Shown piece after piece: positions 4,450 through 63,990 of a stretch of DNA of 64,000 nt; within the stretch, counting starts at the first letter, position 1; every line of letters starts with the position of its first letter. Location: contig NZ_JABEND010000002.1 in the NCBI RefSeq assembly GCF_013002705.1, forward strand, positions 186,001 to 250,000, read 5' to 3'. Made by a program: the position numbers and the translations under genes. The notes below the pieces were generated by a model. The model did no database searches, had not been told where the DNA came from, and saw only the letters and a program-made list of their open reading frames with translations. The stretch comes from Nakamurella aerolata. Lineage in GTDB: Bacteria; Actinomycetota; Actinomycetes; Mycobacteriales; Nakamurellaceae.

Positions 4450-4653
4450 GACCGGTCGGTGTCGGTCGGCATGGTCGTTGGGACCGGGCAGCGGAAAAAT
4501 CGGTGCCTCGCCGCGAGTCTGTGGGACGCGACCTGGGCAAACGCTGATCGAACCGCACATTTTTCTCCCGGCCTGGCGTTGCCCATGAGCGCGGACCGGC
4601 AGCGTTCGGCGAGGCTGCGCCACCCGTTAGACTGATCCCGCGCAGCAGCGTGC

Positions 4654-4729: not shown

Positions 4730-4739
4730 GCATGGACGA

Positions 4740-4776
4740 GGCCCTGACCAGCGAATACGTTGGTCGGGGCCTCGTT
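4740..4776 (+). terminator. Stem-loop terminator after tRNA-Thr
   Basis: GGCCCTGACCA at 4740-4750 pairs, with one G-T, with TGGTCGGGGCC at 4761-4771, followed by TCGTTT. A very similar hairpin lies at 16040-16071 after the right attachment site, so this terminator belongs to the mobile element end and is brought in with it. Confidence 0.7.
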
Positions 4777-4810
4777 TGCGTTGCGGCGCCAGTCGTCGAT
4801 CCGGGCGGCC

Positions 4811-4831
4811 TGCTAACGGTTTTGCTAACAG
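4811..4831. repeat. Paired 9-bp repeats, likely left integrase arm site
   Basis: TGCTAACGG at 4811 and TGCTAACAG at 4823 have a 12-bp period and sit about 80 bp inside the attL core. The same pair with the same period is found inside attR (15859-15879) and in the remnant left end (16110-16130). The position suits arm-type binding of the tyrosine integrase. Confidence 0.6.
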
Positions 4832-4833
4832 CT

Positions 4834-5205
4834 TCACTCATCGAGGTTGGGCCAGTGCGCTGCACCGTAGGTTCGCGCGTCGGCGGCGAACGCATCCCGC
4901 GACGCCGTGTCGATGTCGCCGGGCAGCGCCATCCGCAGCGCGTCGACCACGTCCGAATACCGAATCGGTGGTTGTGGCGCTTGCGGGTGGTGGTTCCTCA
5001 GCTCGATGACCAGATCGACCAGCAGCCGCATGCATCGACTCGGTTCGGTTCGCCAGAGCCAGCCGAATACGTGGCCGCCGGTGTCATCGATGATGACGAA
5101 CCTGCGGATGCCGCCGTCGGCGATGATCTGGTCTGCGAGTCGCGCGACGTACCCGGCCTGCATCCGCTTGTAGATGTCGATCGGGACCTCGATGGTGCGG
5201 TTCAT
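4834..5205 (-). CDS. Hypothetical element protein at the integrase-proximal end
   Basis: A 123-residue protein of unknown function, read leftward after int. Translation is placed at ATG 5205 because AGGAAGGA lies just upstream; a longer frame to 5262 has no such site. The sequence has an N-terminal segment starting MNRTIEVPID, a probable beta strand RRFVIIDD and a Trp-rich patch GWLWRTE, with no catalytic motif that I recognise and no membrane segment. It starts 53 bp after the int stop and probably shares the int transcript. The equivalent place in the neighbouring remnant holds a different gene, so this end of the element also varies. Confidence 0.6.
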   Translation of the reverse strand: MNRTIEVPIDIYKRMQAGYVARLADQIIADGGIRRFVIIDDTGGHVFGWLWRTEPSRCMRLLVDLVIELRNHHPQAPQPPIRYSDVVDALRMALPGDIDTASRDAFAADARTYGAAHWPNLDE

Positions 5206-5258
5206 CTCTTGATTCCTTCCTGATGGTGGCCGCTCTGGTTGAACGGTGATCTGGCAGC

Positions 5259-6419
5259 TCATCCGCCGACGGCGGACGCGAAAATGTCAGCTGCTTTGGT
5301 CTCGGAAGCCCGCAGCACGTGCGCGTACACCCGCAACGTGATCGCGGGGTCGGCATGGCCGAGCCGGCCGGCGACGACGTGCACCGGCACTCCGGCTTCG
5401 AGGAGCACGGTGGCGTGGATGTGCCGCAGGTCGTGCAGACGGATCCGGGGGAGCGAAGGATTCGCGGTCTTGTTGTGCTGTTCGATGAGCTTCGGAATGA
5501 GCTGCGATGGCGTGTCTGGGTAGAGCGGCAACCCCGCACCCCGCGTGAAAACGAAGTCGCCGGCAGCCCAGTCGGGGCCCGCGGCGAAGCGCTGGTCGCG
5601 CTGGTCGCGCTGGTGGCTCCGGAGTACCGCAACGGTCGCGTCGTCGAGGCTGACCGTGCGAGCATGGCCGCCCTTGGTGGTGCCTTCCACTCGTTGGCCG
5701 TTGATGACGGCCACGGTCCCTTGAATCTCCAAGCTGCCGGCGTCGAGGTCGACGTTCGACCAGCGCAGGTTGAGGAGCTCTCCGCGCCGAGCGCCGGTGT
5801 AGGCCGCCAGGTGGAAGAAGGGGAACAGGCGATGCGGCCGGGTGGTCTCGAGGAACACGCGGAGGTCAGCGGGAGTCCAGATGTGCTTAGCAGCGGCCGA
5901 CTGCTTGCGCGGACGTTTCGCGCGATCGACAGGGCTGGCGTTGAGCAGCTGGTCTATGTTCACCGCGTCGTGGAAGGCCTTGCGCAGGATCGCGTGGACC
6001 TTCTCGACGGTGCTGCGGGCGAGTGGACGCCCCTTCGCACCGCCGGCTTTGAGTAGATCGGTGTACAGCCTGGTCAGCATGGCCGGCTGTACCGCCTGGA
6101 GCCGAACGTCGCCCAGCCGAGGCGTCACGTAGCGGTCGATGAGATCTCGGTAGGACGCGATGGTTTGCGGCTTCACTTCGACCTCGTGAACGCCAAGCCA
6201 GGAGTCGAGGAACTGCCCGACCGTGATCGTGGTCCGGTTGACGTACTCCGAGCGGCTGGCAGCGACGCGAGCTTCGTCGCGGGCGGTCTTGGCTTCGCGT
6301 TCCGTGGCGAAGCCGCCGACCCATCGGGGTCTGCTGCGGCCGGTTTCCGGGTCGCGAACCCGCACCACGTAGGACCAGGTCGTTCCGCGTTGAAGGATGC
6401 CGTCCTTTACGCCGGCCAC
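5259..6419 (-). CDS. int: Tyrosine site-specific integrase
   Basis: A 386-residue phage-type integrase that should join the element's attP to the tRNA-Thr attB. An N-terminal arm-binding domain (about 1-60), a SAM-like core-binding domain (about 65-160; TVGQFLDSWL) and a catalytic domain are present. Catalytic residues are visible: Arg in TGARRGELL, the H-x-x-R box in HDLRHIHA, His in GRLGHADP and the nucleophile Tyr in LRVYAHVL near the C-terminus. The GTG start at 6417-6419 lies inside the end of the excisionase gene, so the two are translationally coupled. A decayed copy of its last 30 codons lies at 16849-16940. Confidence 0.93.
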   Translation of the reverse strand: MAGVKDGILQRGTTWSYVVRVRDPETGRSRPRWVGGFATEREAKTARDEARVAASRSEYVNRTTITVGQFLDSWLGVHEVEVKPQTIASYRDLIDRYVTPRLGDVRLQAVQPAMLTRLYTDLLKAGGAKGRPLARSTVEKVHAILRKAFHDAVNIDQLLNASPVDRAKRPRKQSAAAKHIWTPADLRVFLETTRPHRLFPFFHLAAYTGARRGELLNLRWSNVDLDAGSLEIQGTVAVINGQRVEGTTKGGHARTVSLDDATVAVLRSHQRDQRDQRFAAGPDWAAGDFVFTRGAGLPLYPDTPSQLIPKLIEQHNKTANPSLPRIRLHDLRHIHATVLLEAGVPVHVVAGRLGHADPAITLRVYAHVLRASETKAADIFASAVGG

Positions 6420-6598
6420 GGCAGTTCCTCCGTGCCGAGCGACGCGACGTAGTCCCGCAGGTCATCGGCGCGAACGCGGCGGCAGCCGCCGATCTTGACC
6501 GACTTCAAGTCGCCGACGTTGATCAGTTGGTAGGCCTTGCCCCGGCTGATGCCGAGGAACTGCGCGACCTCAGTGACTCGGTACAGCATGCGTCTCAT
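6407..6598 (-). CDS. xis: Excisionase / MerR-like helix-turn-helix
   Basis: A 63-residue DNA-binding protein of the HTH_17 excisionase type: LYRVTEVAQFLGISRGKAY forms the helix-turn-helix and GGCRRVRADDL the wing. It is predicted to direct the integrase toward excision. An AGGAGG at 6604-6609 precedes ATG 6598. The last 13 bases overlap int, the usual xis-int arrangement of AICEs. It is small, complete and shows no damage. Confidence 0.88.
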   Translation of the reverse strand: MRRMLYRVTEVAQFLGISRGKAYQLINVGDLKSVKIGGCRRVRADDLRDYVASLGTEELPWPA

Positions 6599-6661
6599 AG
6601 CGTCCTCCTAGTGATCGATGGGTTATGGCCGAACGGGGTTAGTCGGGGGCAGACCCCAGGT

Positions 6662-8152
6662 TCAGGGGTAGTCCGTGGCAAGTTGCTGCTCCTCTCGTGC
6701 GTGGTCTAGTGCCTCGAGGTGCTCGGTATAGACGCGCGTGGTCAGCAGGAGGTCGCCGGGCGAGAGATGGCCCAGACCGCGGAACTTCCAGGAACCGACC
6801 ACTAGCGTCGATTCGCTGTGGCCCGCGACGCCAGCACGGTCGATGCCGTCGCCCAGCGGAAAACCATCCGCTTGCCGGTGAGCGGCTCGCGCTCCGCGCA
6901 GCTCACCCAGGGTCACGGAGAAGGCTCGGGATTTGGTGGTGAAATGACCACGGAACCCGAGCATGTGGACCCAGCGTTCGATTCCGGCGAACTCGGGCTG
7001 AGTTGCGAGCCGCTCTACGGCCCTCAGCATCCGCACCACATGCGGGGAAAGACCGTGCAGTGCAGCCGCTTCCGCTGTCCGGACACCACTGATCAGGCCG
7101 AAGTCTTCGGCCGCCTTGGTTGAATACTTGGCGATGTACGCCGCTACTTTCTGCGGGGTGACATGTCCGTCGTCGTCGGTGTCGCCCACGACTCTCCGAA
7201 TATCGAGCTGGTCCCCGAAGCGGAGCGCCCGGACGCCGTCGTCGGTAGACGCCGCGAGGAAGCCAGAAGCAGCCGACTCCCGCATGAGATTAGGCAGGTC
7301 CAGGTTGCTCAGATTTGCCGGCCATGGTGCGTATGGCACTTCCGGGCCATCGAGACGGATGATCGCGTGGAAGTGAACGACTCCTCGAGCCTGGAACTCC
7401 GCTACCTTGGCGAAACTGATGCGCATGATCGATCCAAGTTGTCGCTCAGGCAGCTCCAACTCGTCGGCACACCGACGCCTCAACGCGATGGTGAATCGAC
7501 GCCACAGCTCAGGTGCCTTGGCATTGAACGCTGCCGCACCGGTGTAGTCGTAGCAATCGGGGCAGATCGGCGTTCCGAGCCGTGGATCGTCGTCGTCATG
7601 GGTGATAGGGCAGCGGGTGGTCCGGCCGTGCGAGCAGGTCACCTTGGCGCTCCCTGGCCGGCCTCCGCTGGCGCTCCGTCCGGCCCTTCCGCGCCCGCAA
7701 CCCTGCCCGTGTACCGAACCGAACGACGGCCCGGTCAACGTCACGAACCACGACGGGTTGCCGGCTACCGCTCGAGGTACGCCCTTTGTGCCACCTGCGA
7801 TGCCGGCTTGGAGCAAGTGCCACACATCGCCGGCATAGGTCCTACTACATGGCGGGCAGACCGACGCCCTTCGATTGCCGCAGCGCACCAGCAGCTGGCC
7901 ATCAGGCTCATCCTTGCTGTCGTAGATCGTCCGTGCCGATGATTCCCCCGAGGCGACCACTTTGCCGTCGAGCCGGACTGGCCGATGGCAGAACCCGGAT
8001 GATGCTATGAGTCGCTGCCAGCGGGGGAAGCCAGGCTCCAATTGACGTCGAATAGCCTGCTCGACGCACTCGCTCGGCACTTCGGGCTGGGCGTGGGAAG
8101 CAGCGGCGGCCGCGACTCTCACCGCCTGTGGGTCTGCAAATGGCAGAGTCAT
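6662..8152 (-). CDS. RepSA-type replication initiator
   Basis: A 496-residue protein resembling the pSAM2 RepSA family of rolling-circle initiators found in AICEs. Visible are a zinc-binding N-terminal part (CGNRRASVCPPCSRTY), a second Cys/His cluster (CSHGRTTRC ... CPDCYDY) and a central segment FHAIIRLDG that may hold the metal-binding histidines of the nicking domain. It should start replication of the excised circle. Its ATG overlaps the TGA of the transfer gene upstream (TCAT at 8149-8152), so the two are coupled. It ends 63 bp before xis. Confidence 0.85.
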   Translation of the reverse strand: MTLPFADPQAVRVAAAAASHAQPEVPSECVEQAIRRQLEPGFPRWQRLIASSGFCHRPVRLDGKVVASGESSARTIYDSKDEPDGQLLVRCGNRRASVCPPCSRTYAGDVWHLLQAGIAGGTKGVPRAVAGNPSWFVTLTGPSFGSVHGQGCGRGRAGRSASGGRPGSAKVTCSHGRTTRCPITHDDDDPRLGTPICPDCYDYTGAAAFNAKAPELWRRFTIALRRRCADELELPERQLGSIMRISFAKVAEFQARGVVHFHAIIRLDGPEVPYAPWPANLSNLDLPNLMRESAASGFLAASTDDGVRALRFGDQLDIRRVVGDTDDDGHVTPQKVAAYIAKYSTKAAEDFGLISGVRTAEAAALHGLSPHVVRMLRAVERLATQPEFAGIERWVHMLGFRGHFTTKSRAFSVTLGELRGARAAHRQADGFPLGDGIDRAGVAGHSESTLVVGSWKFRGLGHLSPGDLLLTTRVYTEHLEALDHAREEQQLATDYP

Positions 8153-9516
8153 GCGACATCCTCTCGGAGCTTCCGGCTACCCAGATCGTCGCTGAGGCAG
8201 CGGATTTCCTCGTCTCTGATGTAGGAAGCACGAACCATCTGCGGTTCGCCGCCGCCCTCCGACGCGATGTAGCCGACCCCTGGCTGTGCGGCGGGAATGT
8301 CCTCTGCACGTGCACCCATCGCGTGCATCCCGTCGCCGAGCACCATGTCCACCTGGGAGCCGCTGTCGAGCCGCATCGCGATTCGCGTCGGAAACAGCGA
8401 CCGGAACGAGACCACTTCTTTGCGTGGATCCTGCGCGCAACCGATTACGACTACGGCTGCGGCACGACCGCGAGCCAGCAGCGCCGAAACGGCCGCCGTC
8501 GCACGGTTCCGCAGTTTGGCATCTGGCTCATAGGCCGTCAGTGTCGACAGCTCGTCGACGACGATGATCAGCATGGGGTCATCGACCGTTGGTACGTGTT
8601 GTCGCGCGATTCCGGCAAGCCGACGGCATCGCTCATCCATCAGAGCCACCGCAGACTCGAGCAGCTCCACCATCACAACCGTTGACTCACACGCGAAACG
8701 GTCGAAGACGCCCTGGCCGATCCCCAGCTCCATTCCGCCCTTCGGATCGACTGCCCAGGCAGAAACCGTGCCCGTACGAATGGCGGAGGACACGCCGGCC
8801 AACATCGCCCACACGATCGAGGACTTGCCGGAACCGGTGACACCGCCAATGAAGGTGTGGGACCCCAAGAGGGGCAGTACCCATGGCGTGCCGTTCGAGG
8901 TCATCCCAACCGGGACCTGCCGGAGATCACTGCTCGCGGCCCACGGCAGCCGTCCCAGTGGGTCCGCCAGCAGATCGTGAAACCTGAGTTCGATCTGAAT
9001 CACGCCTGGCTGCACGTCGTAAACCCGTGCACTTCGTGCGGCGAAGGCCGCCGCGATCTGCGGGCACGCCGCCTGCCAGACACCGGTGTGCTGTCCGATC
9101 ACCATGGCGACGGTCAGGTGATGCACGCCCTCGTCGATGTCGACGCCAGCAAGTCGGGGCACCACCGTCGTGCCGTCCAGGCGTTTGGTCAAGCCGCACA
9201 TCTCGGTGATCGGCAGCCACCGACGCCGATACGCGCGGCGGGTTTTCGCGCGCGCCCGGGGTGACGTGATCAGCCGTCGGAACAGGCTGGGGCTGATTAC
9301 GCGCAGCATGATCAACGCGATGCCAACGCCACCAAGGATCACGAGTCCAACGGCCCAACCCAACAGCTGGCCGGCGAGGACAACCACCACGATCGGCGCT
9401 GCGATGGAAGGCCGGCTGACCAGCCACCAGATAGCTCGGAGGGCACCAAGTACCAGCCGCCCGAGGAGGTACCCGACGAGCTCAGTCGGGTCCGCGGGTG
9501 CTGTTGACCTGGTCAT
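8149..9516 (-). CDS. FtsK/SpoIIIE-type transfer ATPase (Tra)
   Basis: A 455-residue membrane-anchored DNA translocase. Two hydrophobic segments lie in the first 90 residues, followed by an FtsK domain with Walker A GGVTGSGKSS and Walker B LIIVVDELS. In AICEs a single protein of this type moves double-stranded DNA between hyphae or cells. ATG 9516 overlaps the stop of the upstream gene; a longer frame to 9612 would start inside that gene and is not favoured. It is the second gene of the leftward transcript and is followed by the initiator with an ATGA overlap. Confidence 0.9.
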   Translation of the reverse strand: MTRSTAPADPTELVGYLLGRLVLGALRAIWWLVSRPSIAAPIVVVVLAGQLLGWAVGLVILGGVGIALIMLRVISPSLFRRLITSPRARAKTRRAYRRRWLPITEMCGLTKRLDGTTVVPRLAGVDIDEGVHHLTVAMVIGQHTGVWQAACPQIAAAFAARSARVYDVQPGVIQIELRFHDLLADPLGRLPWAASSDLRQVPVGMTSNGTPWVLPLLGSHTFIGGVTGSGKSSIVWAMLAGVSSAIRTGTVSAWAVDPKGGMELGIGQGVFDRFACESTVVMVELLESAVALMDERCRRLAGIARQHVPTVDDPMLIIVVDELSTLTAYEPDAKLRNRATAAVSALLARGRAAAVVVIGCAQDPRKEVVSFRSLFPTRIAMRLDSGSQVDMVLGDGMHAMGARAEDIPAAQPGVGYIASEGGGEPQMVRASYIRDEEIRCLSDDLGSRKLREDVA

Positions 9517-9848
9517 GCTGCCGGCGCCTTGGCCGGGCCGGAGCCGGAAGCGCTCACGGGGGCGACCCGCTGCGCGCGGAAGGAAACTCCGGAACGGCCC
9601 TCGATCTCCCACGTCGTGGCGACCAGATCATGAACCTCGACAAAGCTTCCCGCCGAAACTTTTGGCTCCGCGTCAACGACGATGGTCAGCGCCTCGCGCA
9701 TGAACTCGTCGCCGATGGGCACGACGGTGAGCTGCCAGAGCATCGCCCCGGACTTGTCCACCCGCTGGTTGCCGGACTGATCGAGCTTGGCGCTCGGTGC
9801 AACGACGACTACGTACTTGGTTCCTTCGGTGCGCAACCTCATCCGCAT
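9513..9848 (-). CDS. Small AICE regulatory protein (SCO3933-like)
   Basis: A 111-residue protein at the head of the leftward core operon. A conserved strand pattern (KYVVVVAPSAKLD, then AMLWQLTVVPIG) and the position just before tra resemble proteins annotated as the SCO3933 family in Streptomyces elements. Its exact role is unknown. ATG 9848 is chosen because AGGAAAGGAG lies just upstream; the frame continues to 9929 without a ribosome site. The C-terminus is Ala/Pro-rich. Confidence 0.65.
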   Translation of the reverse strand: MRMRLRTEGTKYVVVVAPSAKLDQSGNQRVDKSGAMLWQLTVVPIGDEFMREALTIVVDAEPKVSAGSFVEVHDLVATTWEIEGRSGVSFRAQRVAPVSASGSGPAKAPAA

Positions 9849-9919
9849 GGTCTGCTCCTTTCCTGGGGTCGCGCGGTTCGCGACCTCTGCATCGAGTGGA
9901 AACCCGGTTCGCAGAAGCG

Positions 9920-9940
9920 ACCCGGACAAACTGTCCGGGT
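9920..9940. promoter_or_regulatory. 21-bp palindrome between divergent element operons
   Basis: ACCCGGACA and TGTCCGGGT form a perfect inverted repeat with a 3-bp centre (AAC). It lies between the leftward core operon (start 9848) and the rightward XRE gene (start 9982). This is the expected place for an operator that sets the switch between the integrated and replicating states. Confidence 0.65.
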
Positions 9941-9981
9941 ACCAAAGGGACGAAGTCGGAGGGCCCCGCTACGCTGACGAA

Positions 9982-11196
9982 ATGCGGGGCGCCGGTGATC
10001 AGATGAGCACGGGGCAACGTGTCGCCTTCTACCGTCGGCGCCGCGGCCTCACCCAGGGTGTGCTCGCCGGACTCATCGGACGCAGCGAGGACTGGCTCAG
10101 CAAGGTCGAGCGCAACCAACGCCGGCTCAACGAGCAGACCTTGACCGCCGTAGCTCAGGCGCTGCGTGTCATGCCCGAAGACATCAAGGGCCAGCCCGTG
10201 TTGGCTGAGGCTGATCGTCCGGCGAACGACGATGTTCCTGCTGTTCGCGAAGCACTCTTGGACCATCGACGGCTGTCCGCGACGCTCTTCGCAGTCGAAC
10301 GATCATTCGTCGATGTGGACGCGGTAGCGGCGTACTCCCGCAACGTCTGGGACCTGTACCAACGCGGTCAGACGGGCGCGGTCATCTCTGAATTGCCTCG
10401 GCTGATCAGGGATGCTCAGGCGCTCGAGGCGTCCGGCGACTCGGACGGCCGTCCTTGGGCAGTGTCAGCCCGGATTCACCACCTCGCAGCTACGACGCTG
10501 GCAAAGCTGGGCGAGAGCGAGCTGGCATGGACGGCCGGCGAGCAGGCGATGCGTGCGGCAGAGCGGTCCGGCGACCCGTTGGCGATTGCGTCCGCGTCCA
10601 GGGCGACCACGCATGCCTTGTTAGCAATGGGACGCTTCGATCATGCCGTTGAGCTTGGTCAGCGCACCGCCGACTGGTTGAACGATCAGTTGCGGAAGGA
10701 CGATCCTGCGGCGCTGAGTCTGCTGGGAATGCTGCACCTACGGACCGCGATCGCGGCGTCCCAGCGTCAGGATCGCGCCGCTACGAACGAACTTCTTGAC
10801 CGTGCCGAGGCGCTCGCCTCTCGACTCGGCCGCGATGCGAACCTTTGGCAGACCAGCTTCGGACCGACGAACGTGCGCCTGCATCGAGTCGCAGCCAACC
10901 TCAATCTGGAAGACGTGGCCTGGGTCATCGAGCACGGCGCCGAGGTCAACAGCTCGCAACTTCCGATCGAACGGACGGTCGCGCACAAGATCGACCTGGC
11001 CCGCGCAAACAGCTACCACGCAAAGGACCAGACCGCAGTCGAGTACCTCATCGACGCCGAGCACCTGGCGCCCGATCTGGTGCGCCAGAGCGCCGCCGTT
11101 CGCGAAACGGTCAAGTCGATGCTGCACCGCAACATCGCTTCGACTGGCAAGGGCAGCCTGCTGGGCGACCTCGCCGTGCGCTGCCGGGCGGTCTGA
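9982..11196 (+). CDS. XRE-family regulator with TPR-like C-terminal domain
   Basis: A 404-residue regulator. An N-terminal XRE helix-turn-helix (GQRVAFYRRRRGLTQGVLAG, then LIGRSEDWLSKVERNQR) is followed by a long all-helical part with tetratricopeptide-like repeats (about 130-390), seen in many actinobacterial element regulators. It likely controls the divergent core genes through the palindrome at 9920-9940. A TACGCT box at 9970-9975 lies 6 bases before ATG 9982, which suggests a leaderless mRNA; ATG 10003 is the alternative start. Its stop overlaps the flavoprotein start (TGATG), so the two are coupled. Confidence 0.82.
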   Translation: MRGAGDQMSTGQRVAFYRRRRGLTQGVLAGLIGRSEDWLSKVERNQRRLNEQTLTAVAQALRVMPEDIKGQPVLAEADRPANDDVPAVREALLDHRRLSATLFAVERSFVDVDAVAAYSRNVWDLYQRGQTGAVISELPRLIRDAQALEASGDSDGRPWAVSARIHHLAATTLAKLGESELAWTAGEQAMRAAERSGDPLAIASASRATTHALLAMGRFDHAVELGQRTADWLNDQLRKDDPAALSLLGMLHLRTAIAASQRQDRAATNELLDRAEALASRLGRDANLWQTSFGPTNVRLHRVAANLNLEDVAWVIEHGAEVNSSQLPIERTVAHKIDLARANSYHAKDQTAVEYLIDAEHLAPDLVRQSAAVRETVKSMLHRNIASTGKGSLLGDLAVRCRAV

Positions 11197-51324: not shown

Positions 51325-51412
51325 AAGCAAGGCCATGAGCTGCGGAAATGCCGCGGAATCCGCCGAGCAGCCCGAACCGCTCATTCCGCCGTTACGAGGC
51401 CGCCCGGCAACC

Positions 51413-51423
51413 TGTACTATACA
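51413..51423. promoter_or_regulatory. GntR autoregulatory site and -10 box
   Basis: TGTA-CTA-TACA is a perfect inverted repeat overlapping the -10-like TACTAT (51415-51420), 8 bases before the GntR ATG. This fits a leaderless, self-repressed gene. Confidence 0.55.
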
Positions 51424-51428
51424 AATCA

Positions 51429-53272
<1,844 letters not shown>

Positions 53273-53456: not shown

Positions 53457-56400
53457 ATGCGCTTCGCTGCCCGCCCGACCCGCTCCCTGTCCCGCGCACT
53501 ACTGGCCGCCACCTCCGCCGTGGTGTTGGTCGCCGCCGGGCTCTCGGCCCTGCCCGCGCGGTCCGCGGCCGCTCCGGCCGAGCCTGCGGAGGCCGCCGCG
53601 ACGCCGACGCTGGAGCTGCTGCCGCGGCCCAGCTCGTGGCAGCCGGCCGACGGCAGCTTCCCGCTGAAATCGGGGATGCCGGTGCGCTACCTGAGCAGCC
53701 AGGCGCAGTCCGTCGCGGCGCCCGGTGTTCCGGCCGACGGCGACACCGGCGGCGTGCAGCAACGGGTCGCCGAGGTGGCCGGGCAGTTGGCCGCCGACGC
53801 CAAGGATGCCGATCGGCTGACGCTCAAGCCGCAACCGGTCGCGACCGCGGACGCCGAGGGTGCGGTGCTGCTGAAGCTGTCAGCCGACCCGGCCGAGCTG
53901 GGTCGCGAGGGATACCGCATCGACACCACCGGCAGCGGCATCACCGTCACCGCCCCGACCGGCACCGACCTGTACTACGCCACCCGCAGCCTGCTGCAGC
54001 TGATGAAGGGCTCAGGGGCGCCCATCCCGGCCGGCGTGATCACCGACCAGCCGGACCAGCGGATCCGGATGGTGCACATCGACGCCGCCCGGAAGTACTG
54101 GGAGCCAACGGCTCTGAAGGACCTGATCCGGCGGATGGCATACCAGAAGATGAACGCCCTGCAGCTGCACATCGCCGAGCCAGAGGGCTTTCGGCTCTAC
54201 GACCCGAAGTACCCGGGTCTGGCCGACCCGAAGTACTCCTACGACAAGAAGACCATCACCGACCTGGTGGAGTTCGCCAGGCTGCGTGGGGTCGACATCA
54301 TCCCGGGATTCGAGTTCCCCGGGCACGCCACCGCGATCTCCGACTACTTCAAGGTCGGCATCGCCGATGGCCCCAATGCCTGTGGCCAGCAGTACATCTA
54401 CGGCTGGGTGACACCGAACTTCGCCATCGACATGACCTCGCCGAAGGCCAGGCAGGTCAGCGACGAGGTGATCCGCACCTTCGCATCGTGGTTCCCGAGC
54501 AAGTACGTGCACCTCGGTGGCGACGAGCTGCCGCCCAGCGTCGGGAACTGCCCGCGGATCAAGGACTATGTGGCCAACGATCCCAAGCTGGACACCTTCG
54601 GCGACCTGGTGCTGGACTACCTCAACGGTCTCAACGGCACCGTCAACGATCTCGGCAAGACCTCCATCATCTACAACGGCTTCGAGAACGACCCGGCCCC
54701 GCGGGTGCAGCTCGACAAGAACGTGGTGGTGATGAACTGGACCGGCGAGAACCCCATCAACAACCCGGCTTTCAACGGCCACCAGATCATCGACACGCCA
54801 AGCTTCGCCTACCTGACGCCGAACCAGTACCACCACCTGATTCCCGACACCAAGAAGATCGCCGAGACCTGGCAACCTCCGGTCGACGACCCGCGCTACC
54901 TTGGCTCAGGGGTGTCGGCGTGGGCCGACTACAACATGTGGGCCTCCGACGAGTTCTTCGAGAACCTGCTGGCACCTGGCCGCACGGTGATGGCCGACCG
55001 GACCTGGCGCAACACCCCGGCACCGGGCGGCGCCGCGGCCGTGCAGGCGCTGGCGGACCAGCTCCCACCGGCGCCGGGACTGACCGGTTTCCCGCCGCAG
55101 CAACGGGTGGGCCCGGCAAAGCCGTTGAGCAGCTACGACTTCGAGCCCGCCGAGTCCCCGCAGGGTTGGCACCAGGGCGCGCCGGACGGGATTGTCGCGC
55201 CGCTGCTGGACGCCACCGGTCGGGCCAACGGCTCCAGCTACATCATCAACGTGCCGGAAAGCGTCGACGGCCTCACCGGCAAGGCCTGGCGCTTCGACAA
55301 CGACGGCGACGGAGTCGGTTTCGGGCACGTGGATCTGGCCCAGTCATGGACCGCGTCGGTGTGGTTCGCGCCCAGCCAGCTCCGCGAGGGCGCCGTGCTC
55401 TACAACTCCGAGGCCCGCTCGATCGCCGTCGACGCCGGCGGTGTCACCTTCACCGACCGGACCGACCCCGAGGCGGTCAGCACGTTCAGCGTGCCGGCGA
55501 AGCTCACCGCCAGCCGGTGGAACTTCTTGAGCATCGTCGCCGACCGCACCAGCACAACGGTATACGTCAACGGTGTGGAGTCGGCCGAGGTGCGGCAGAG
55601 CATGCCGCTGCCGCGCGGTTCGATCGGCCGCAAGGGCGCTCCCGGCATCAGGGGTGACCTCGACAACCTGACCATCTACGACGCGGCACTGCCCGGCAAC
55701 ATGATCAAGAAGCTGTACGACAAGGACTCCCAGGCGGGCAAGGACTATCAGCCGACGGTGGCCTCGCTGAACAGCCACCCGACACCGGACTGGTTCAACA
55801 ACGACAAGTTCGGCATCTTCATCCACTGGGGCGCCTACTCGGTGCCGGCCTGGGGACCGCGCGGCTCCTACGCCGAGTGGTATTGGAACTACTTGAACAA
55901 CCCCGGCAGTCCGACCAACACCTACCACAAGCAGACCTACGGCGTTGACTTCCCGTACGACCGCTTCGCCCAGGAGTGGGATCCGAGCAAGTTCGACCCG
56001 TCTGCCTGGGTTCAGCTTTTCAAGGACGCCGGCGCCAAATACTTCGTGTTGACCAGCAAACACCATGAGGGCGTTGCCCTTTTCGACTCCAAGGTGAGTG
56101 AGCGCGACACCGTCGCGATGGGGCCGGGGCGTGACCTGGCGAAGGAACTGTTCGACGCGGCGCGCGCCGAGAGCGATCTCAAGGCCGGCTTCTACTACTC
56201 GCTCTACGAGTGGTTCAACCCGCAGTACACCGGTAAGCCGGCCACCAATCCCTATACCGGGCAACCGGTTCCGTACACCGGCGGCCAGACCAGCGGCGAC
56301 TACGTGCAGGACTACATGAAGCCGCAGATGGAAGAGCTGATCAAGCAATACGACCCGGACATCCTGTGGTGCGACGGGCAGTGGGACAAGCCGGCCTCGT

Positions 56401-57875
56401 ACTGGGACACCGCGCCGGTCATCGCCGACTTCTACAACCAGGCTAAGAACCGTCCCGAGCCCAAGAAGGTGGCGGTCGCCAACCGCTGCAAGATCCAGAC
56501 CGGCGAGCTCGACTCCAAGGAGCTGGACTTCCAGACGCCCGAGTACACCGTCAAGGACGACATCGACCCGAACAAGTGGGAAGCCAGCCGCGGAATCGCA
56601 CACTCCTACGGGTACAACCAGAATGAGCCGGAGGAGGATTACCTCACCACCGACGAACTTGTCGACTCGCTGGCCGACATCGTGTCCAAGAACGGAAACC
56701 TGTTGCTGGACATCGGTCCTCGCGCCGACGGCACCATCCCCGAGCTGCAGCAGCAGCGGCTGCGCGAGATCGGTCAGTGGCTGAACATCAACGGCGAAGC
56801 CATCTACGGCACCACCTACTTCAACAGGGCCGAGGAGCCGGCGTCGGACGTGCCGGTGCGGTACACCGTCAAAGACGGTGACCTGTATGCGATTGCACTG
56901 GACTGGCCGGGCCGCACCTTGACCTTGGGCTCCGACCTGCCGATCCAGCGCGACTCCAAGGTCACCCTGCTCGGCAGCGATGGGACGGCGCTGCCGTGGA
57001 AGCGAGATGCCAACGGGCGCATGGTGATCACCATGCCCGCTGCCGGCGAGAAGGCCACCACCAGCCGCAACGCCTTCGCCTTCAAGATCAGCACCAGCGG
57101 CGTGCGCAGCCTGCCGCGGGTGTGGGTGGACCCGGTGACGCCGGCCGAACCCGGCGGCAGCACCACCGCAACCATCACCGTCACCAACACCAGCCAGACC
57201 GCACCGCTGGCAGCGGCGCGGATCACCCTCGACGTTCCGGCCGGCTGGCAGGCGTCGACCACCAGCATTCAGGTGCCGGCGCTGGCCGGTGGGCAGAGCC
57301 GCAGCTTCCGGGTGACGCTGACCGCCACCGCCGACGCCGTCACCCCGGCGACCTTGGGAGTCAAGCTGGTCTCCGGCCGGTCCAGCGCGGCGGTTGACGT
57401 TCCGCTTGCGGTGAAGCTGCCGAACCTCGCGTTGAACAAGCCGGCAACCCAGAAGAGCACCGCGTGGGGCGCGCCGGCCGCCCGCGCGGTGGACGGCAAC
57501 ACCAACGGGGCGTTCGGCGCCGGCTCGGTGACGCACACCGCCGAGCCGGAGTCGCAGGCCTGGTGGCAGGTGGACCTCGGCAAGAGCCAGCCCATCGGCT
57601 CGGTGGACGTCTACAACCGCACCGACTGCTGCTCCGAGCGGCTCAGCAACTATTGGGTGATGACCTCCGACCAGCCGTTCACCAGCGACTCGCTCGAGCA
57701 GACCCGCACCGCAGCCGGCGTCACCGCCGTCAAGGTCACGGCGCAGGCCGGCACGCCGTCCACCGTCGCGCTGCCGAAGGGGACCAGCGGCCGCTACCTG
57801 CGGATCCAGCTGGAGTCCGGCAGCAACCCGCTGTCGCTGGCCGAGGTGGAGGTGTTCGGCACCAGCGGGGGCTGA
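53457..57875 (+). CDS. Secreted bifunctional GH20-GH29 glycosidase with LamG, NEW3 and F5/8C
   Basis: A 1472-residue exoenzyme. Signal peptide 1-40. Then a GH20 unit: an alpha/beta lead domain and a barrel with IRMVHIDAARKYW, LQLHIAEPEGFRL, IIPGFEFPGHA and LGGDELPP, whose D356-E357 is the catalytic pair. A LamG/concanavalin-like domain (about 555-760) follows, then a GH29 fucosidase barrel (about 770-1115) with FGIFIHWGAYSVPAWGPRGS, LTSKHHEG and nucleophile D973 in LWCDGQW; a C-terminal beta domain; a NEW3 domain (about 1220-1295; TATITVTNTSQTAPL); and an F5/8 type C carbohydrate-binding domain (about 1323-1470; AWWQVDLG). GH20 removes beta-linked N-acetylhexosamine and GH29 removes alpha-L-fucose. 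No neighbour gene shares the pathway. Confidence 0.9.
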   Translation: MRFAARPTRSLSRALLAATSAVVLVAAGLSALPARSAAAPAEPAEAAATPTLELLPRPSSWQPADGSFPLKSGMPVRYLSSQAQSVAAPGVPADGDTGGVQQRVAEVAGQLAADAKDADRLTLKPQPVATADAEGAVLLKLSADPAELGREGYRIDTTGSGITVTAPTGTDLYYATRSLLQLMKGSGAPIPAGVITDQPDQRIRMVHIDAARKYWEPTALKDLIRRMAYQKMNALQLHIAEPEGFRLYDPKYPGLADPKYSYDKKTITDLVEFARLRGVDIIPGFEFPGHATAISDYFKVGIADGPNACGQQYIYGWVTPNFAIDMTSPKARQVSDEVIRTFASWFPSKYVHLGGDELPPSVGNCPRIKDYVANDPKLDTFGDLVLDYLNGLNGTVNDLGKTSIIYNGFENDPAPRVQLDKNVVVMNWTGENPINNPAFNGHQIIDTPSFAYLTPNQYHHLIPDTKKIAETWQPPVDDPRYLGSGVSAWADYNMWASDEFFENLLAPGRTVMADRTWRNTPAPGGAAAVQALADQLPPAPGLTGFPPQQRVGPAKPLSSYDFEPAESPQGWHQGAPDGIVAPLLDATGRANGSSYIINVPESVDGLTGKAWRFDNDGDGVGFGHVDLAQSWTASVWFAPSQLREGAVLYNSEARSIAVDAGGVTFTDRTDPEAVSTFSVPAKLTASRWNFLSIVADRTSTTVYVNGVESAEVRQSMPLPRGSIGRKGAPGIRGDLDNLTIYDAALPGNMIKKLYDKDSQAGKDYQPTVASLNSHPTPDWFNNDKFGIFIHWGAYSVPAWGPRGSYAEWYWNYLNNPGSPTNTYHKQTYGVDFPYDRFAQEWDPSKFDPSAWVQLFKDAGAKYFVLTSKHHEGVALFDSKVSERDTVAMGPGRDLAKELFDAARAESDLKAGFYYSLYEWFNPQYTGKPATNPYTGQPVPYTGGQTSGDYVQDYMKPQMEELIKQYDPDILWCDGQWDKPASYWDTAPVIADFYNQAKNRPEPKKVAVANRCKIQTGELDSKELDFQTPEYTVKDDIDPNKWEASRGIAHSYGYNQNEPEEDYLTTDELVDSLADIVSKNGNLLLDIGPRADGTIPELQQQRLREIGQWLNINGEAIYGTTYFNRAEEPASDVPVRYTVKDGDLYAIALDWPGRTLTLGSDLPIQRDSKVTLLGSDGTALPWKRDANGRMVITMPAAGEKATTSRNAFAFKISTSGVRSLPRVWVDPVTPAEPGGSTTATITVTNTSQTAPLAAARITLDVPAGWQASTTSIQVPALAGGQSRSFRVTLTATADAVTPATLGVKLVSGRSSAAVDVPLAVKLPNLALNKPATQKSTAWGAPAARAVDGNTNGAFGAGSVTHTAEPESQAWWQVDLGKSQPIGSVDVYNRTDCCSERLSNYWVMTSDQPFTSDSLEQTRTAAGVTAVKVTAQAGTPSTVALPKGTSGRYLRIQLESGSNPLSLAEVEVFGTSGG

Positions 57876-57960
57876 CCCCCGGCGTGGCCGCCCGGGCGAT
57901 CGGGTGGGCCTGCCGATCGCAGACCAGCCCGCTGTCGGTGTCGGCGCGCACAATGGTTCG

Positions 57961-60900
57961 GTGAGCAAACGCGCCAACCGGACGAGCGCGGGCTCGGCCG
58001 ACCCGTTGGCGCGGTTCTCGCCGCTGGTGCGGCAGTGGTTCGGGCAGGCGTTCGCCGAGCCGACCGCGGCGCAGGCCGGCGCCTGGGACGCGATCGGCAA
58101 GGGCGAGCACACCCTGGTGGTGGCTCCCACCGGCTCCGGCAAGACCCTGGCCGCCTTCCTGTCGGCGATCGACCGGATCGTCACCCGGCCGGAGCCGCCC
58201 AGCGATCCGCACCATCGCTGCGGCGTCATCTACCTTTCGCCGATCAAGGCGCTCGCGGTCGATGTGGAACGCAACCTGCGCTCGCCGCTGGCCGGGCTCG
58301 CCGGCCTGGCCAGGGCGCAGGGCGGCAGCGTGCCGGACGTCACCGTCGCGGTGCGGTCCGGCGACACTCCGGCGGCCGACCGCCGCGACTTCGCGCGCAA
58401 CGGCGCCGACATCCTCATCACCACCCCTGAGTCGCTGTTCCTGCTGCTGACCAGCCAGGCGCGGGAGATGTTCGCCGGCGTGCACACGGTGATCGTCGAC
58501 GAGGTGCATTCCATCGCCGGCAGCAAACGCGGTGCGCACCTTGCTGTCTCGCTCGACCGGTTGGATGCGCTGCTGGAGCGGCCGGCGCAGCGGATCGGCC
58601 TGTCCGCGACGGTGCGCCCGGTGGAAGAAGCGGCGCGGTTCCTGGCCGGCGGCCGGCCGGTCACCACCGTCGCCCCGCCGGCCCGCAAGGTGATCAACCT
58701 CGACGTCACCGTCCCGGTGGAGGACATGACGGCGCTCGGCCAGGTCAGCGCCACCGATCCTGACCTGTCCGGCGCCGCTGCCGGCGACCCGCGCCGCAGC
58801 AGCATCTGGCCGCACGTCGAGGAGCAGGTGGTCGACCTGATCACCGCGCACCGGTCGACCATCGTGTTCGCCAACTCCCGGCGGCTGGCGGAGCGGCTCA
58901 CCGCAAGGATCAACGAGATCCACGCAGAGCGCACCGGCGAGTTCGATCCGCAGGCCGCCCGCGACGCCAAGCCACCCGCGCAGCTGATGGCCCAGTCCGA
59001 CCGCAGCCACGGCACCGCCGCGGTGCTCGCCAAGGCTCATCACGGGTCGGTGTCGCACCAGCAGCGCGCCGTCATCGAGGACGAGCTCAAGCAGGGCGTG
59101 CTGCCCGCGGTGGTGGCCACCTCGTCGCTGGAACTCGGCATCGACATGGGTGCGGTCGACCTCGTCATCCAGGTGGAAGCCCCGCCGAGCGTTGCCGGCG
59201 GCCTGCAGCGCATCGGCCGGGCCGGGCATCAGGTCGGCGCCCCCAGCCACGGTGTGCTGTTCCCCAAGTTCCGAGGCGATCTGCTGGCCAGCGCGGTGGT
59301 TGCCGAACGGATGCTGGGCGGAGAGATCGAGCAGCTGCGCATCCCCTCGCTGCCACTGGACGTACTGGCCCAGCAGATCGTCGCGATCATCGCGATGGAC
59401 TCGCTGACGGTGCCCGAACTGCAGGCCCTGCTGCGCCGGTCGGCGCCGTACGCCACCCTCGGCCGCGGCGCGCTGGACGCGGTGCTGGACATGCTGTCCG
59501 GCCGCTACCCCAGCGAGGAGTTCGGCGAGCTGCGACCCCGGCTGGTCTGGGACAGGGCCACCGACCGGCTCACCGCCAGGCGCAACGCGCAGACGCTGGC
59601 CGTCACCTCCGGCGGGACCATTCCCGATCGCGGCCTTTTCGGGGTGTTCTTGGCGACCGAGGGTCAGGGCAGCGGGGGAGCCGGCCGCCGGGTCGGCGAG
59701 CTGGACGAGGAAATGGTCTACGAGTCGCGGGTCGGCGACGTGTTCGCGCTCGGCAGCTCGAGCTGGCGGATTGTCGAGATCACCCACGACAGGGTGCTGG
59801 TGCTGCCGGCCAGCGGTCTGCCCGGCCGGCTGCCGTTCTGGAAGGGCGACACGCTGGGCCGGCCCGCCGAACTCGGTACGGCGCACGGGGCGTTCGTCCG
59901 GGAGCTGGCGACGGCATCGCAAACGCAGGCGCAGCAACGGCTTTCCGGTATCGGCCTTGACGGCAACGCCAGCGCCAACCTGCTCGAGTACCTGAGCGCC
60001 CAGACCGAAGCCACCGGTGTGCTGCCGGACGAGAAAACCATTGTGCTGGAACGGTTTCGGGACGAGCTGGGCGATTGGCGGGTCGTTCTGCACTCGCCGT
60101 ACGGCGCTGCCGTGCATGCGCCGTGGGCGCTGGTGCTGGCGGCCAGGCTGCGGGAACGCTTCGGGGTGGACGTCTCCGCCATGCACGCCGACGACGGCAT
60201 TGTGCTGCGGCTGCCCGATCTCGGCGGCGACGACGACGCCGACCCACTCGCCGAGCTGCCTGAGCTGATCACCCTCGACCCCGGCACCGTCACCGCAGAG
60301 GTCACCGAGCAGATCGGCGGCAGCGCGGTATTCGCGGCCCGCTTCCGGGAGTGCGCCGCACGGGCATTGTTGTTGCCGCGCCGCCAGATCGGGGCGCGGC
60401 AGCCGCTGTGGCAGCAGCGGCTGCGGGCCACGGCGCTGCTCGAGGTGGCCAGCAGGTACCCGAGCTTCCCGATCGTCGCCGAGGCGGTGCGGGAATGCCT
60501 GCAGGACGTTTTCGATGTGCCGGCGCTGGTGGCAGTGCAGCGCGGCCTGGCCGACCGGTCGGTGCGGCTGGTGCCGGTGCAGACCCCGGCGCCGAGCCCG
60601 TTCGCGTCGTCGCTGCTGTTCGGCTACGTCGCGCAGTTCATCTACGACGGCGACTCGCCGCTGGCCGAGCGCCGGGCCGCCGCGCTCACCCTCGACCCCG
60701 ACCTGCTCGCCGAACTGCTCGGCGGCGCCGATGCCCCGGTGCTGTCCGACCTGCTCGACGCCGACACCGTTACCGAGACCGAGCGCGGGCTGCAGCGGCT
60801 CACCCCGGAGCGCAAGGCCCGCTCCGACGACGACATTGCCGATCTGCTAAGGATTCTCGGCCCGTTGACCGCGGCCGAGATCGCCGAGCGCAGCGTCGAT

Positions 60901-63015
60901 GAGCTGGACGTGCCCGCGGTACTTAACGGATTGCGGGCCACCCGCAGGGTGATCGACGTCAGGGTCGGCGGCCGCGAGGTGCTGGCCGACCCGGCCGACG
61001 CCCCGCTGCTGCGCGACGGGTTGGGGGTGGCGCTGCCGCAGGGCATCGCGGCGTCGCTGTTGGACACAACGGTGGACGAGCCGATCGACCGGTTGATCGG
61101 TCGCTACGCCCGCACCCGCGGGCCGTTCGTGGCGGCCGCCCCTGCTGCCCGGTTCGGCATCGGGGTGGCGGTGGCGCTGGATGCGTTGCGGCGCTTGCAA
61201 TCAGCCGGACGCATTGCCGAGGGCGACTTGCGCCCGGCCGGCAGCGCCCCGGTCGACCCGTTGGACGCGGCCGCCGCCGAACACGCCACCGGGGCCGGCG
61301 GTAGCCGGGAGTTCGTCGATGCCGAGGTGCTGCGGCTGCTGCGCCGGCGCTCGCTGGCGAGCCTGCGGTCGGAGGTGGAACCGGCCACCTCGTCCGCGTT
61401 CGCCGCGTTCCTGCCGGCCTGGAACGGCATCGGCGCCGGCCGCGGCCAGCAACCGCTGCGCGGCGTCGACGGGGTGCTGCGCGCGGTGGAACAGCTTGCC
61501 GGAGCCAGAGTTCCGGCCTCGGCGCTGGAGTCGCTGATTCTGCCGGCCAGGGTCCCTGGCTATTCACCGGCCATGCTCGACGAGCTGATGACCAGTGGAG
61601 AAGTGGTGTGGGCCGGGCACGGGGCACTGGGTACCGACGACGGCTGGGTCAGCCTGCACCCCGCCGACACCGCGTCGCTCACTCTGCCCGAACCGCCGGC
61701 CGACCTTCCCGACAGCGTGCAGACACCCCTGCATCAGGCGCTGCTGCGAGTGCTCGGCAACGGCGGTGGCTACTTCTTCCGGGAACTGGCAGATGCGGTG
61801 GCCCGCAACGGTTTCCCCGGTGCCGACCCGGCCGGGAACAACTCGGTGGCCGGTGTCGGCAGCGGGGCCGGGGCTGGCGCCGGGGCAGCGCGCGGTACGG
61901 GGCCGGTTACCGACACGGTGGCCGGTGCCGGTGGTTCGGTGGTCGGCGACGAGGCACTCGGCTCGGCGCTGTGGGACCTGGTGTTCGCCGGGCTGGTGAG
62001 CGGCGACACCATCGCACCGCTCCGGGCCAGGCTGGCCGGCGGTCGCACCGCGCACCGCCCCGGTGGACGCAGCCGTGGGCAGCAGCGACTCCGGTTGCCC
62101 AGCCGCGGCCGGCTGGCCGCCGTCCCACGAGCACCGCGGCTGCCGCCGCACCTGGCCGGACGCTGGTCGCTGCTGCCGCCGGTGGAGACCGACCCGACGG
62201 TGCGCGCGCACGCCAACGCCGAATTGCTGCTGGAGCGGCACGGCGTGGTGACCAGGGGTGCCGCGGTGGCGGAGGAAACCCCGGGCGGTTTCGGCGCCCT
62301 CTACCGGGTGCTGTCGGCGTTCGAAGAATCCGGCAGAGTGCGGCGCGGCTACTTCGTCGAAGGGTTGGGCGCGGCGCAGTTCGCCACCGCCGGTGCCGTC
62401 GATCGGCTGCGCGCCGGCCCGGTCGACGACTCCACCGGCCGGCGCGGCCAGACCGATGCGCCGGTCGTGGTGCTGGCCGCCGCCGACCCGGCCAATCCCT
62501 ACGGTGCCGCCTTGCCGTGGCCGGAACGCACCGGCGCATCGGCTCCGGCGTCAGCGCAGGGCGACCCGGCGAGCGCGCCGGCGGGCGCCGAGACTGCGAG
62601 TGCTGTGGGTACTGGGGGTGCCGGCACCGCCGGCGCCGCAGCGGTGGGCACCGGGCAAGCAAGTGCTGGGGCAACCGGCGCCGGCACATCGGCCGATGCC
62701 GCGCCGGACAGCCACCGACCGGCCCGTCGCGCCGGCGCACTGGTGGTGCTGCGCCAGGGCCGGCTGCTGCTGTATGCCGAGCGCGGTGGTCGCTCGCTGC
62801 TCAGCTTCACCGACGATCAGGACGAATTGGACGCCGCGGCGACAGCGTTGGCTTCGGCTGTGCTGTCCGGACATGTCGCAACGATGACTATCACCCGAGT
62901 GGATGGCGTCGATGCCGTCGGTCCGCAATCTCGCGGGGCCGTACTGGACGCGCTGCAACGCAACGGGTTTACTGTCACCCCACGTGGACTACGGCTCCGA
63001 ACGGGGGTGCGGTGA
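57961..63015 (+). CDS. lhr: Lhr-type large DNA helicase
   Basis: A 1684-residue superfamily-2 helicase. Motif I APTGSGKT (about 56-63), DEVH box VDEVHSIAGSKRGAHL (about 180), motif III LSATVRP, motif IV TIVFANSRR, motif V LELGIDMG and motif VI QRIGRAGHQ; then winged-helix, beta-barrel and the long Lhr C-terminal domain. Low-complexity Gly/Ala inserts (about 1290-1320 and 1520-1565) interrupt the C-terminal part. Mycobacterial Lhr is a 3'-5' ssDNA translocase induced by DNA damage. GTG 57961 is the chosen start; nei follows directly after the stop. Confidence 0.93.
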   Translation: MSKRANRTSAGSADPLARFSPLVRQWFGQAFAEPTAAQAGAWDAIGKGEHTLVVAPTGSGKTLAAFLSAIDRIVTRPEPPSDPHHRCGVIYLSPIKALAVDVERNLRSPLAGLAGLARAQGGSVPDVTVAVRSGDTPAADRRDFARNGADILITTPESLFLLLTSQAREMFAGVHTVIVDEVHSIAGSKRGAHLAVSLDRLDALLERPAQRIGLSATVRPVEEAARFLAGGRPVTTVAPPARKVINLDVTVPVEDMTALGQVSATDPDLSGAAAGDPRRSSIWPHVEEQVVDLITAHRSTIVFANSRRLAERLTARINEIHAERTGEFDPQAARDAKPPAQLMAQSDRSHGTAAVLAKAHHGSVSHQQRAVIEDELKQGVLPAVVATSSLELGIDMGAVDLVIQVEAPPSVAGGLQRIGRAGHQVGAPSHGVLFPKFRGDLLASAVVAERMLGGEIEQLRIPSLPLDVLAQQIVAIIAMDSLTVPELQALLRRSAPYATLGRGALDAVLDMLSGRYPSEEFGELRPRLVWDRATDRLTARRNAQTLAVTSGGTIPDRGLFGVFLATEGQGSGGAGRRVGELDEEMVYESRVGDVFALGSSSWRIVEITHDRVLVLPASGLPGRLPFWKGDTLGRPAELGTAHGAFVRELATASQTQAQQRLSGIGLDGNASANLLEYLSAQTEATGVLPDEKTIVLERFRDELGDWRVVLHSPYGAAVHAPWALVLAARLRERFGVDVSAMHADDGIVLRLPDLGGDDDADPLAELPELITLDPGTVTAEVTEQIGGSAVFAARFRECAARALLLPRRQIGARQPLWQQRLRATALLEVASRYPSFPIVAEAVRECLQDVFDVPALVAVQRGLADRSVRLVPVQTPAPSPFASSLLFGYVAQFIYDGDSPLAERRAAALTLDPDLLAELLGGADAPVLSDLLDADTVTETERGLQRLTPERKARSDDDIADLLRILGPLTAAEIAERSVDELDVPAVLNGLRATRRVIDVRVGGREVLADPADAPLLRDGLGVALPQGIAASLLDTTVDEPIDRLIGRYARTRGPFVAAAPAARFGIGVAVALDALRRLQSAGRIAEGDLRPAGSAPVDPLDAAAAEHATGAGGSREFVDAEVLRLLRRRSLASLRSEVEPATSSAFAAFLPAWNGIGAGRGQQPLRGVDGVLRAVEQLAGARVPASALESLILPARVPGYSPAMLDELMTSGEVVWAGHGALGTDDGWVSLHPADTASLTLPEPPADLPDSVQTPLHQALLRVLGNGGGYFFRELADAVARNGFPGADPAGNNSVAGVGSGAGAGAGAARGTGPVTDTVAGAGGSVVGDEALGSALWDLVFAGLVSGDTIAPLRARLAGGRTAHRPGGRSRGQQRLRLPSRGRLAAVPRAPRLPPHLAGRWSLLPPVETDPTVRAHANAELLLERHGVVTRGAAVAEETPGGFGALYRVLSAFEESGRVRRGYFVEGLGAAQFATAGAVDRLRAGPVDDSTGRRGQTDAPVVVLAAADPANPYGAALPWPERTGASAPASAQGDPASAPAGAETASAVGTGGAGTAGAAAVGTGQASAGATGAGTSADAAPDSHRPARRAGALVVLRQGRLLLYAERGGRSLLSFTDDQDELDAAATALASAVLSGHVATMTITRVDGVDAVGPQSRGAVLDALQRNGFTVTPRGLRLRTGVR

Positions 63016-63990
63016 ATGCCGGAAGGCGACACCGTCTTGCGGACGGCGCGCACCCTGCACCGGGCGTTGAGCGGAAAGCCCTTGACGCGCACCGAGTTTC
63101 GCTGGGGCGCGCTCGGCGAGATCGACCTGGCCGGACGGCAGGTGATCGAGACGGTTGCCTACGGCAAGCATCTGCTCACCAGGATCGCCGGCGGACGCGG
63201 TAGCGCCGGCCCGCACCGTTCGGCCGCCGAGGTCCCGCTCACCCTGCACACCCACCTGCGGATGGACGGCAGCTGGCGGTTGCACCGCACCGGCAGCCGC
63301 GACTGGCCGCGTACCGACGACCCGCAGATCCGGGCCGTGGTGGCCGGCAGCGACTGGACCTGCGTCGGAATCCTGCTCGGCATGATCGACCTGGTGCCCA
63401 CCGAACGCGAGTCCGAACTGGTCGGCGCCCTCGGGCCGGACATCATGGCCGAGCAGTGGCCGGACACCGGGCGGAGCGAAGCGCTCAGGCGGTGGTCAAC
63501 CGCGGCCGACCGACCGCTCGGCGAGGTGCTGCTCGACCAGCGCGTCGTCGCCGGTATCGGCACCTTCTACATGGCCGAAGCGCTGTTCGCCCGGCGGCTC
63601 TCGCCGTGGAGGCCGGCGTCGGAGCTGGATGCGGATGCGGCGGGCGAGTTGCTCGATACCGCTCGCCGGTTGTTGCTGGCCGGCGCCGAACAACCCGTCC
63701 CGAACACCACCGGCGACACCCGCCGCAAAGAAACCTCCTACGTGCACGCGCGGTCCGGCCGGCCCTGCCGGCGCTGCGGCGGCGGAGTACGAGTGGCCGG
63801 CGTCGGTACCGCGCCGCACGAACGCCCGGCGTTCTACTGCCCGAACTGTCAGCCCGGGCCGGCACCCACCGACAACGGTCGCCCGCAGGCCCCGCTGGGC
63901 GCGGCGCCGACCCGGCCGGGGTCACTGCGCAACGTCGGTCTTGGGCCACCCCGCTGGCGAGCGGAACCGGGTCGCGGATACCGCCGATGA
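63016..63990 (+). CDS. nei: Fpg/Nei-family DNA glycosylase (endonuclease VIII-like)
   Basis: A 324-residue base-excision glycosylase/AP lyase. The N-terminal M-PEGDT gives catalytic Pro2 and Glu3; a helix-two-turn-helix segment DQRVVAGIGTFYMAEALF follows, and the zinc finger C-terminus reads CRRCGGG ... CPNCQ. It removes oxidised pyrimidines. Gene order lhr-nei, with the ATG directly after the lhr TGA, is the same as in mycobacteria. The last 40 residues after the zinc finger are an Arg/Pro-rich extension. The gene ends 10 bases before the window edge. Confidence 0.93.
   Translation: MPEGDTVLRTARTLHRALSGKPLTRTEFRWGALGEIDLAGRQVIETVAYGKHLLTRIAGGRGSAGPHRSAAEVPLTLHTHLRMDGSWRLHRTGSRDWPRTDDPQIRAVVAGSDWTCVGILLGMIDLVPTERESELVGALGPDIMAEQWPDTGRSEALRRWSTAADRPLGEVLLDQRVVAGIGTFYMAEALFARRLSPWRPASELDADAAGELLDTARRLLLAGAEQPVPNTTGDTRRKETSYVHARSGRPCRRCGGGVRVAGVGTAPHERPAFYCPNCQPGPAPTDNGRPQAPLGAAPTRPGSLRNVGLGPPRWRAEPGRGYRR

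Follow-up and report, generated by a model that had tools for sequence, protein, structure and literature searches.

We investigated an open reading frame (ORF) of Nakamurella aerolata (Nakamurellaceae), located at positions 53457-57875 of the forward strand of a 64,000-nucleotide stretch of contig NZ_JABEND010000002.1, hereafter the window. This gene encodes one polypeptide that joins a GH20 unit, a GH29 unit and a C-terminal lectin, and its product, judged from its sequence, is probably a secreted exo-beta-N-acetylhexosaminidase and alpha-L-fucosidase guided by a fucose-binding lectin. The same two units are found in other actinomycetes as adjacent genes, fused in the same order, or fused in the reverse order.

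The ORF runs from ATG to TGA without internal stops and encodes 1472 residues arranged as GH20b-GH20-LamG-GH29-Fucosidase_C-NEW3-F-type lectin, and all Pfam matches exceed their curated cut-offs, in agreement with the original prediction of a single polypeptide carrying GH20 and GH29 units. That prediction had also called the enzyme secreted, and the translation indeed begins with a predicted N-terminal signal peptide (residues ~1-39, MRFAARPTRSLSRALLAATSAVVLVAAGLSALPARSAAA, 53457-53573); no cell-wall anchor motif was seen at the C-terminus when the translation was read by eye. The gene is single-copy: no second copy was found in the genome, whose further GH20 and GH29 proteins are distant. 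In what follows, module A designates GH20-LamG and module B designates GH29-NEW3-F-lectin; all features are on the forward strand.

Firstly, module B most likely contains a GH29 subfamily-A-like enzyme, a putative alpha-L-fucoside hydrolase. Its barrel (residues 757-1114, 55725-56798) matches PF01120 (Alpha_L_fucos) at 3.7e-115; the best solved relative is the Thermotoga maritima fucosidase 1HL8 (E 3.5e-73), and human FUCA1 (7PLS) matches at 1.8e-69. A phmmer alignment to 1HL8 places D973 (within ILWCD, 56373-56375) and E1029 (within TPEY, 56541-56543) on the residues that we take to be the GH29 nucleophile and acid/base, and both are invariant in 11 relatives. 1HL8 and 7PLS, both GH29-A enzymes, have a single activity and neither lectin nor GH20, whereas the window protein has both. 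The barrel is followed by a Fucosidase_C domain (residues 1133-1211, 56853-57089; PF16757, 4e-10) and a NEW3, or NPCBM-associated, domain (residues 1230-1296, 57144-57344; PF10633, NPCBM_assoc, 3.7e-8).

The original prediction ended the protein with NEW3 and F5/8C modules; NEW3 stands, and the last domain can be specified further. It gives an F5/8-type C match in Pfam (residues 1333-1461, 2.5e-15) and matches a NedA-like model at 1.1e-19, but by its sequence it is an F-type (fucose-binding) lectin, or fucolectin (residues 1318-1470, 57408-57866). When residues 1321-1472 were compared with solved structures, all six matches were F-type lectins (1.8e-31 to 1e-12), including striped bass FBP32, pneumococcal fucolectin-related proteins, S. 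mitis Sm-hPAF and eel agglutinin 1K12. The fucose triad, vicinal cysteine pair and cation motif described for these lectins (PMC5712786) are all present: H1360, R1388 and R1395 form the complete triad, the two arginines lying in an R-x-D-x4-R motif (R1388-T-D-C-C-S-E-R1395) that includes the pair C1391-C1392, and AVDGN at 1344-1348 (D1346-G-N1348) corresponds to the cation motif h2DGx. The spacing of H1360 and R1388, with 27 residues between them, exceeds by one that of eel agglutinin (H52-R79), and the published HX24 is shorter. The complete triad, cysteine pair and cation motif therefore predict binding of L-fucose, and a lectin of this type fits fucosylated targets.

Taken alone, module B has its closest relatives in Microtetraspora and other Streptosporangiaceae, as GH29-NEW3-lectin proteins with no GH20; the identity of those of Microtetraspora to the window protein is 70% in GH29 and 66% in the lectin. 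A characterised counterpart is the GH29-A fucosidase SrFucNaFLD of Streptosporangium roseum (ACZ87343.1), which also carries an NPCBM-associated domain and an F-type lectin domain (Bishnoi et al. 2018, through PMC10154630 and PMC10076258). Going by its description in these citing papers and by the Microtetraspora relatives, its domains follow the order of module B (GH29, NEW3, F-type lectin), and the same accounts name no parts beyond Fuc, Na and FLD, and nothing like the GH20-LamG half of the window protein. Separately, a GH29 sequence 54% identical to that of the window (G199:C16:59011-60471, loci L111/L124) has one in-frame TAG in the matched stretch, and no lectin was found in its ORF.

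Secondly, module A has the fold and most of the active site of a GH20 hexosaminidase. A non-catalytic GH20b domain (residues 53-198, 53613-54050; PF02838, Glyco_hydro_20b, 1.8e-16) precedes the catalytic barrel (Pfam span residues 204-473, 54066-54875; PF00728, Glyco_hydro_20, 3.5e-40), which extends to about residue 545 in an AlphaFold model of residues 50-757, built from an eight-row alignment (predicted local distance difference test 80, predicted template modelling score 0.85). In a fold search with the GH20 part, which barely covered LamG and did not cover NEW3, the model matched solved GH20 enzymes with Z of about 30-35, lacto-N-biosidases and hexosaminidases being tied at the top. The catalytic pair D356-E357 (54522-54527), the assisting Asp and the general acid/base, sits in HLGGDE and is invariant in all eight aligned module-A proteins, as are the subsite -1 arginine R212 (54090-54092), Y452, W489 and D491; H290 is conserved in seven of the eight, and W428 is replaced by Y or F in two. 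The window protein thus shares the D-E pair, the Arg, the Trp/Tyr set and the fold with the hexosaminidases of S. plicatus (SpHex), B. fragilis (4PYS) and A. muciniphila (Am2136); it differs from them by having E-P where the typical beta-2 motif has D-D, by a short loop 2 accompanied by LamG, and by its fusion to a fucosidase. The acidic residues had been predicted to be intact in both barrels, and they are; loss of active-site residues, set beforehand as the outcome that would overturn the prediction, was sought by sequence alignment and found in neither barrel.

The LamG/concanavalin-like domain (residues 617-748, 55305-55700; PF13385, Laminin_G_3, 3e-12) had been read as joining the two enzymes. 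We assign it instead to the GH20 unit, as part of the module and not as a linker, because it follows GH20 in every module-A relative, whether in A-B fusions, B-A fusions or stand-alone A. All module-A proteins have a short loop 2 (YPGLADPKYSYD in the window). In the lacto-N-biosidase LnbB of Bifidobacterium bifidum, a lectin-like domain after GH20 gives a loop that is needed for activity when loop 2 of the GH20 is short (PMC4449183). Because of the short loop and this precedent, LamG likely completes the GH20 pocket, for which it would supply the remote closing element.

Thirdly, we analysed how the modules are arranged in relatives, in samples of 394 genomes from the class and 341 from one family. 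The A-B fusion, GH20-LamG-GH29-NEW3-lectin, was found in the window and, among the 394 class genomes, in G947, G933 and G1012 only, three genomes of one genus belonging to a family other than that of the window; their NEW3 was recognised by alignment and not by domain scan. The fusion is absent from all 16 other genomes of the window's genus, and in the genome contig collection the 80 nearest GH29 loci all lack a GH20 in the same ORF, so that the order is as uncommon as had been suspected. Strict single-sequence scans of the genome-contig and viral-contig collections gave no match. A search of the phylum with the GH20 half alone (E<=1e-50) also found none, a weak negative since four candidates were scored per genome; a later module-A profile found relatives in the class which that search had missed. 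In G1157, GH20-LamG and GH29-NEW3-lectin are two adjacent genes on the same strand, separated by a TGA, 16 nucleotides including GGAAGGA, and a GTG that opens a second signal peptide. At the same place in the A-B fusions, the mature fucosidase starts directly where LamG ends (YDKDSQAGKD in the window, residues 754-763, 55716-55745). The reversed order, GH29-NEW3-F-lectin-GH20-LamG in one ORF, occurs in G554 (L122:6621-11174, reverse strand) and G757 (L130:6789-11735, forward strand), two Streptosporangiaceae and thus of the same family as Microtetraspora. Another GH20 gene lies directly upstream of each; the G554 fusion also has beside it a gene for a GH84 N-acetylglucosaminidase with an F5/8C domain (L122:4142-6529, reverse strand), and a binding-protein-dependent ABC-transporter permease gene further on. 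Because relatives have both halves adjacent or fused in reverse, keeping the two activities together appears to be useful.

The trees of the two modules differ in where they place G1157. For module A, G947, G933 and G1012 group with the stand-alone A of G1157 (support 100/100); a group uniting the window with these three genomes was rejected (approximately unbiased test, p-AU 6e-8), as was a separation of all fused forms from G1157 (1e-5). For module B, G1157 groups with unfused Streptosporangiaceae sequences (98/92) and its grouping with G947, G933 and G1012 was rejected (p 0.006), while the fused forms as one group were not rejected (support 43/46). These values are to be read with caution, the window A sequence and the outgroup having long branches and the tested groups having been named after the tree was seen. 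The most economical account has two joinings as a minimum, one for A-B and one for B-A, and probably further ones, with modules re-paired in some cases; alternatively, one early fusion in the A-B order may have been split later in the lineage of G1157. That a two-module system was joined more than once and in both orders, with the two-gene form still living, under a selection that favours tethering whatever the geometry, is a tentative proposal to which we give somewhat less than an even chance.

Taken together, these data lead us to propose the following scheme. A GH20-LamG gene would have been joined to a GH29-NEW3-lectin gene, the opposite joining having taken place in another lineage. In the secreted product, module A would remove terminal beta-linked N-acetylhexosamine by substrate-assisted catalysis, with D356 as the assisting residue and E357 as the acid/base, and module B would remove terminal alpha-L-fucose by a retaining mechanism, with D973 as nucleophile and E1029 as acid/base. 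The lectin would keep the enzyme on fucose-rich glycan surfaces, and tethering would allow the action of one enzyme to uncover the substrate of the other when both work on a single glycan that contains fucose and GlcNAc.

Several observations weigh against this scheme. E241-P242 stands in the place of the beta-2 D-D pair of many hexosaminidases, the active-site His is partnered by E and not D, and a T lies two residues past Y452, unlike in typical hexosaminidases. The GH20 half is divergent, its closest relatives being 38-41% identical and GH20s outside the module-A family about 33% or less. The nearest solved enzymes, by profile bits and by structure, include lacto-N-biosidases, even if these tie in Z with hexosaminidases, and no other glycan-degradation genes were found among the scanned neighbours in the window. 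The D-D pair is typical of GH20 exo-beta-N-acetylhexosaminidases and probably not strictly defining.

We considered four other explanations. It is unlikely, although it is the best placed of the four, that the GH20 unit is of the lacto-N-biosidase type, releasing Gal-beta1,3-GlcNAc after GH29 has removed a blocking fucose. Among solved enzymes the module-A profile has its best score with the lacto-N-biosidase StrLNBase (181 bits), and two further lacto-N-biosidases also score well; LnbB has an equal GH20b-GH20-lectin-like layout, and W489-x-D491 of the window corresponds to W465-x-D467 of LnbB. In five Streptomyces, too, a GH20 gene stands beside a related GH29, and the one examined is lacto-N-biosidase-like: these loci (L028, L029, L031, L037 and L038, ~4500-10900) contain a GH29 gene, then the GH20 gene, then a second GH29-like gene, and in L028 the GH20 lacks the active-site Arg together with the region behind it and, like StrLNBase, has NSPGH, pointing to a fucosidase/lacto-N-biosidase cluster. 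The residues of module A point the other way. R162 of SpHex is the subsite -1 arginine of hexosaminidases and is replaced by Q190 in LnbB (PMC4449183); StrLNBase also lacks this Arg, whereas every module-A protein keeps it (R212 in the window). Subsite -2 of LnbB includes Asn259 and His263 (PMC8004761); in the window the position of the Asn is occupied by E286, with D in some relatives, and H290 is retained at that of the His. The identification as a lacto-N-biosidase from profile ranking was thus set aside on R212 and E286. The structural match to LnbB, whose loop 2 is likewise short, has Z 34.6, but overall identity is about 19%, and LnbB continues with CBM32 and Ig-like domains where the window protein continues with a fucosidase. 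Because the Arg is kept and the Asn259 position is acidic, release of a single N-acetylhexosamine is favoured over release of a disaccharide.

It is slightly less probable that the two enzymes work on unrelated substrates, their fusion being neutral or serving only co-secretion. Since module order differs between lineages, a fixed geometry is not required, as this explanation would have it. On the other hand, the same modules exist in separate, A-B and B-A forms and the trees suggest more than one joining, while the surroundings of the G554 fusion are likewise hexosamine-directed.

More doubtful still is a GH20 whose catalysis is lost or changed and which would be mainly a binding or structural part of the fucosidase. 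The E-P pair and the low identity to known enzymes would fit such a loss, and so would a distant relative without the active-site His: this GH20-LamG-F5/8C-like protein of G596 (L131:6494-9451, forward strand) has Lys at the His position and Gln at the beta-2 acid, and its GH20 is possibly inactive. However, the window protein keeps D356-E357, R212, H290, W428, Y452, W489 and D491, nearly all of which are also kept in six relatives. The first beta-2 position is likewise acidic (E or D) in the window and these six, the most distant relative being the one exception, whereas the second position varies; the solved 4PYS itself has E-G. We thus dropped the E-P pair as a sign of a dead GH20.

Finally, absence from 16 congeners might suggest that two neighbouring genes were merged by an error of sequencing or assembly, but this is extremely improbable because the same order, with the same junction, occurs in three further genomes, and the frame is open without a stop inside a 639-kb contig.

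In the window, the putative hexosaminidase-fucosidase gene is preceded by genes for a GntR/UTRA regulator (51348-52208, forward strand) and, directly upstream, an NAD-dependent epimerase/dehydratase of the sugar-nucleotide type (52205-53272, forward strand); a simple scan for a palindromic operator upstream of the gene gave nothing convincing. Directly downstream, a very long ORF (57904-63015, forward strand) resembles an Lhr-type helicase by its motifs and is followed by an Fpg/Nei-type DNA glycosylase (63016-63990), a pair that looks unrelated to the enzyme.

All domain families described here are known, and it is as a variant combining them that this polypeptide and its reversed counterpart are new. 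No description of a GH20-GH29 polypeptide was found in the literature searched, which took in few subscription papers. The module may offer a case outside LnbB of a LamG-like domain completing a GH20 active site. Single enzymes that remove both fucose and hexosamine could serve glycan analysis or remodelling, and would show the natural order of removal. Of greatest interest is the reversal of domain order: since the modules exist as A-B, as B-A and as separate genes, it can be tested directly whether tethering and domain order matter, for which the usual approach is artificial fusions, and repeated joining in both orders, if true, would amount to an experiment of nature on the effect of proximity within one molecule when a glycan is attacked in sequence.

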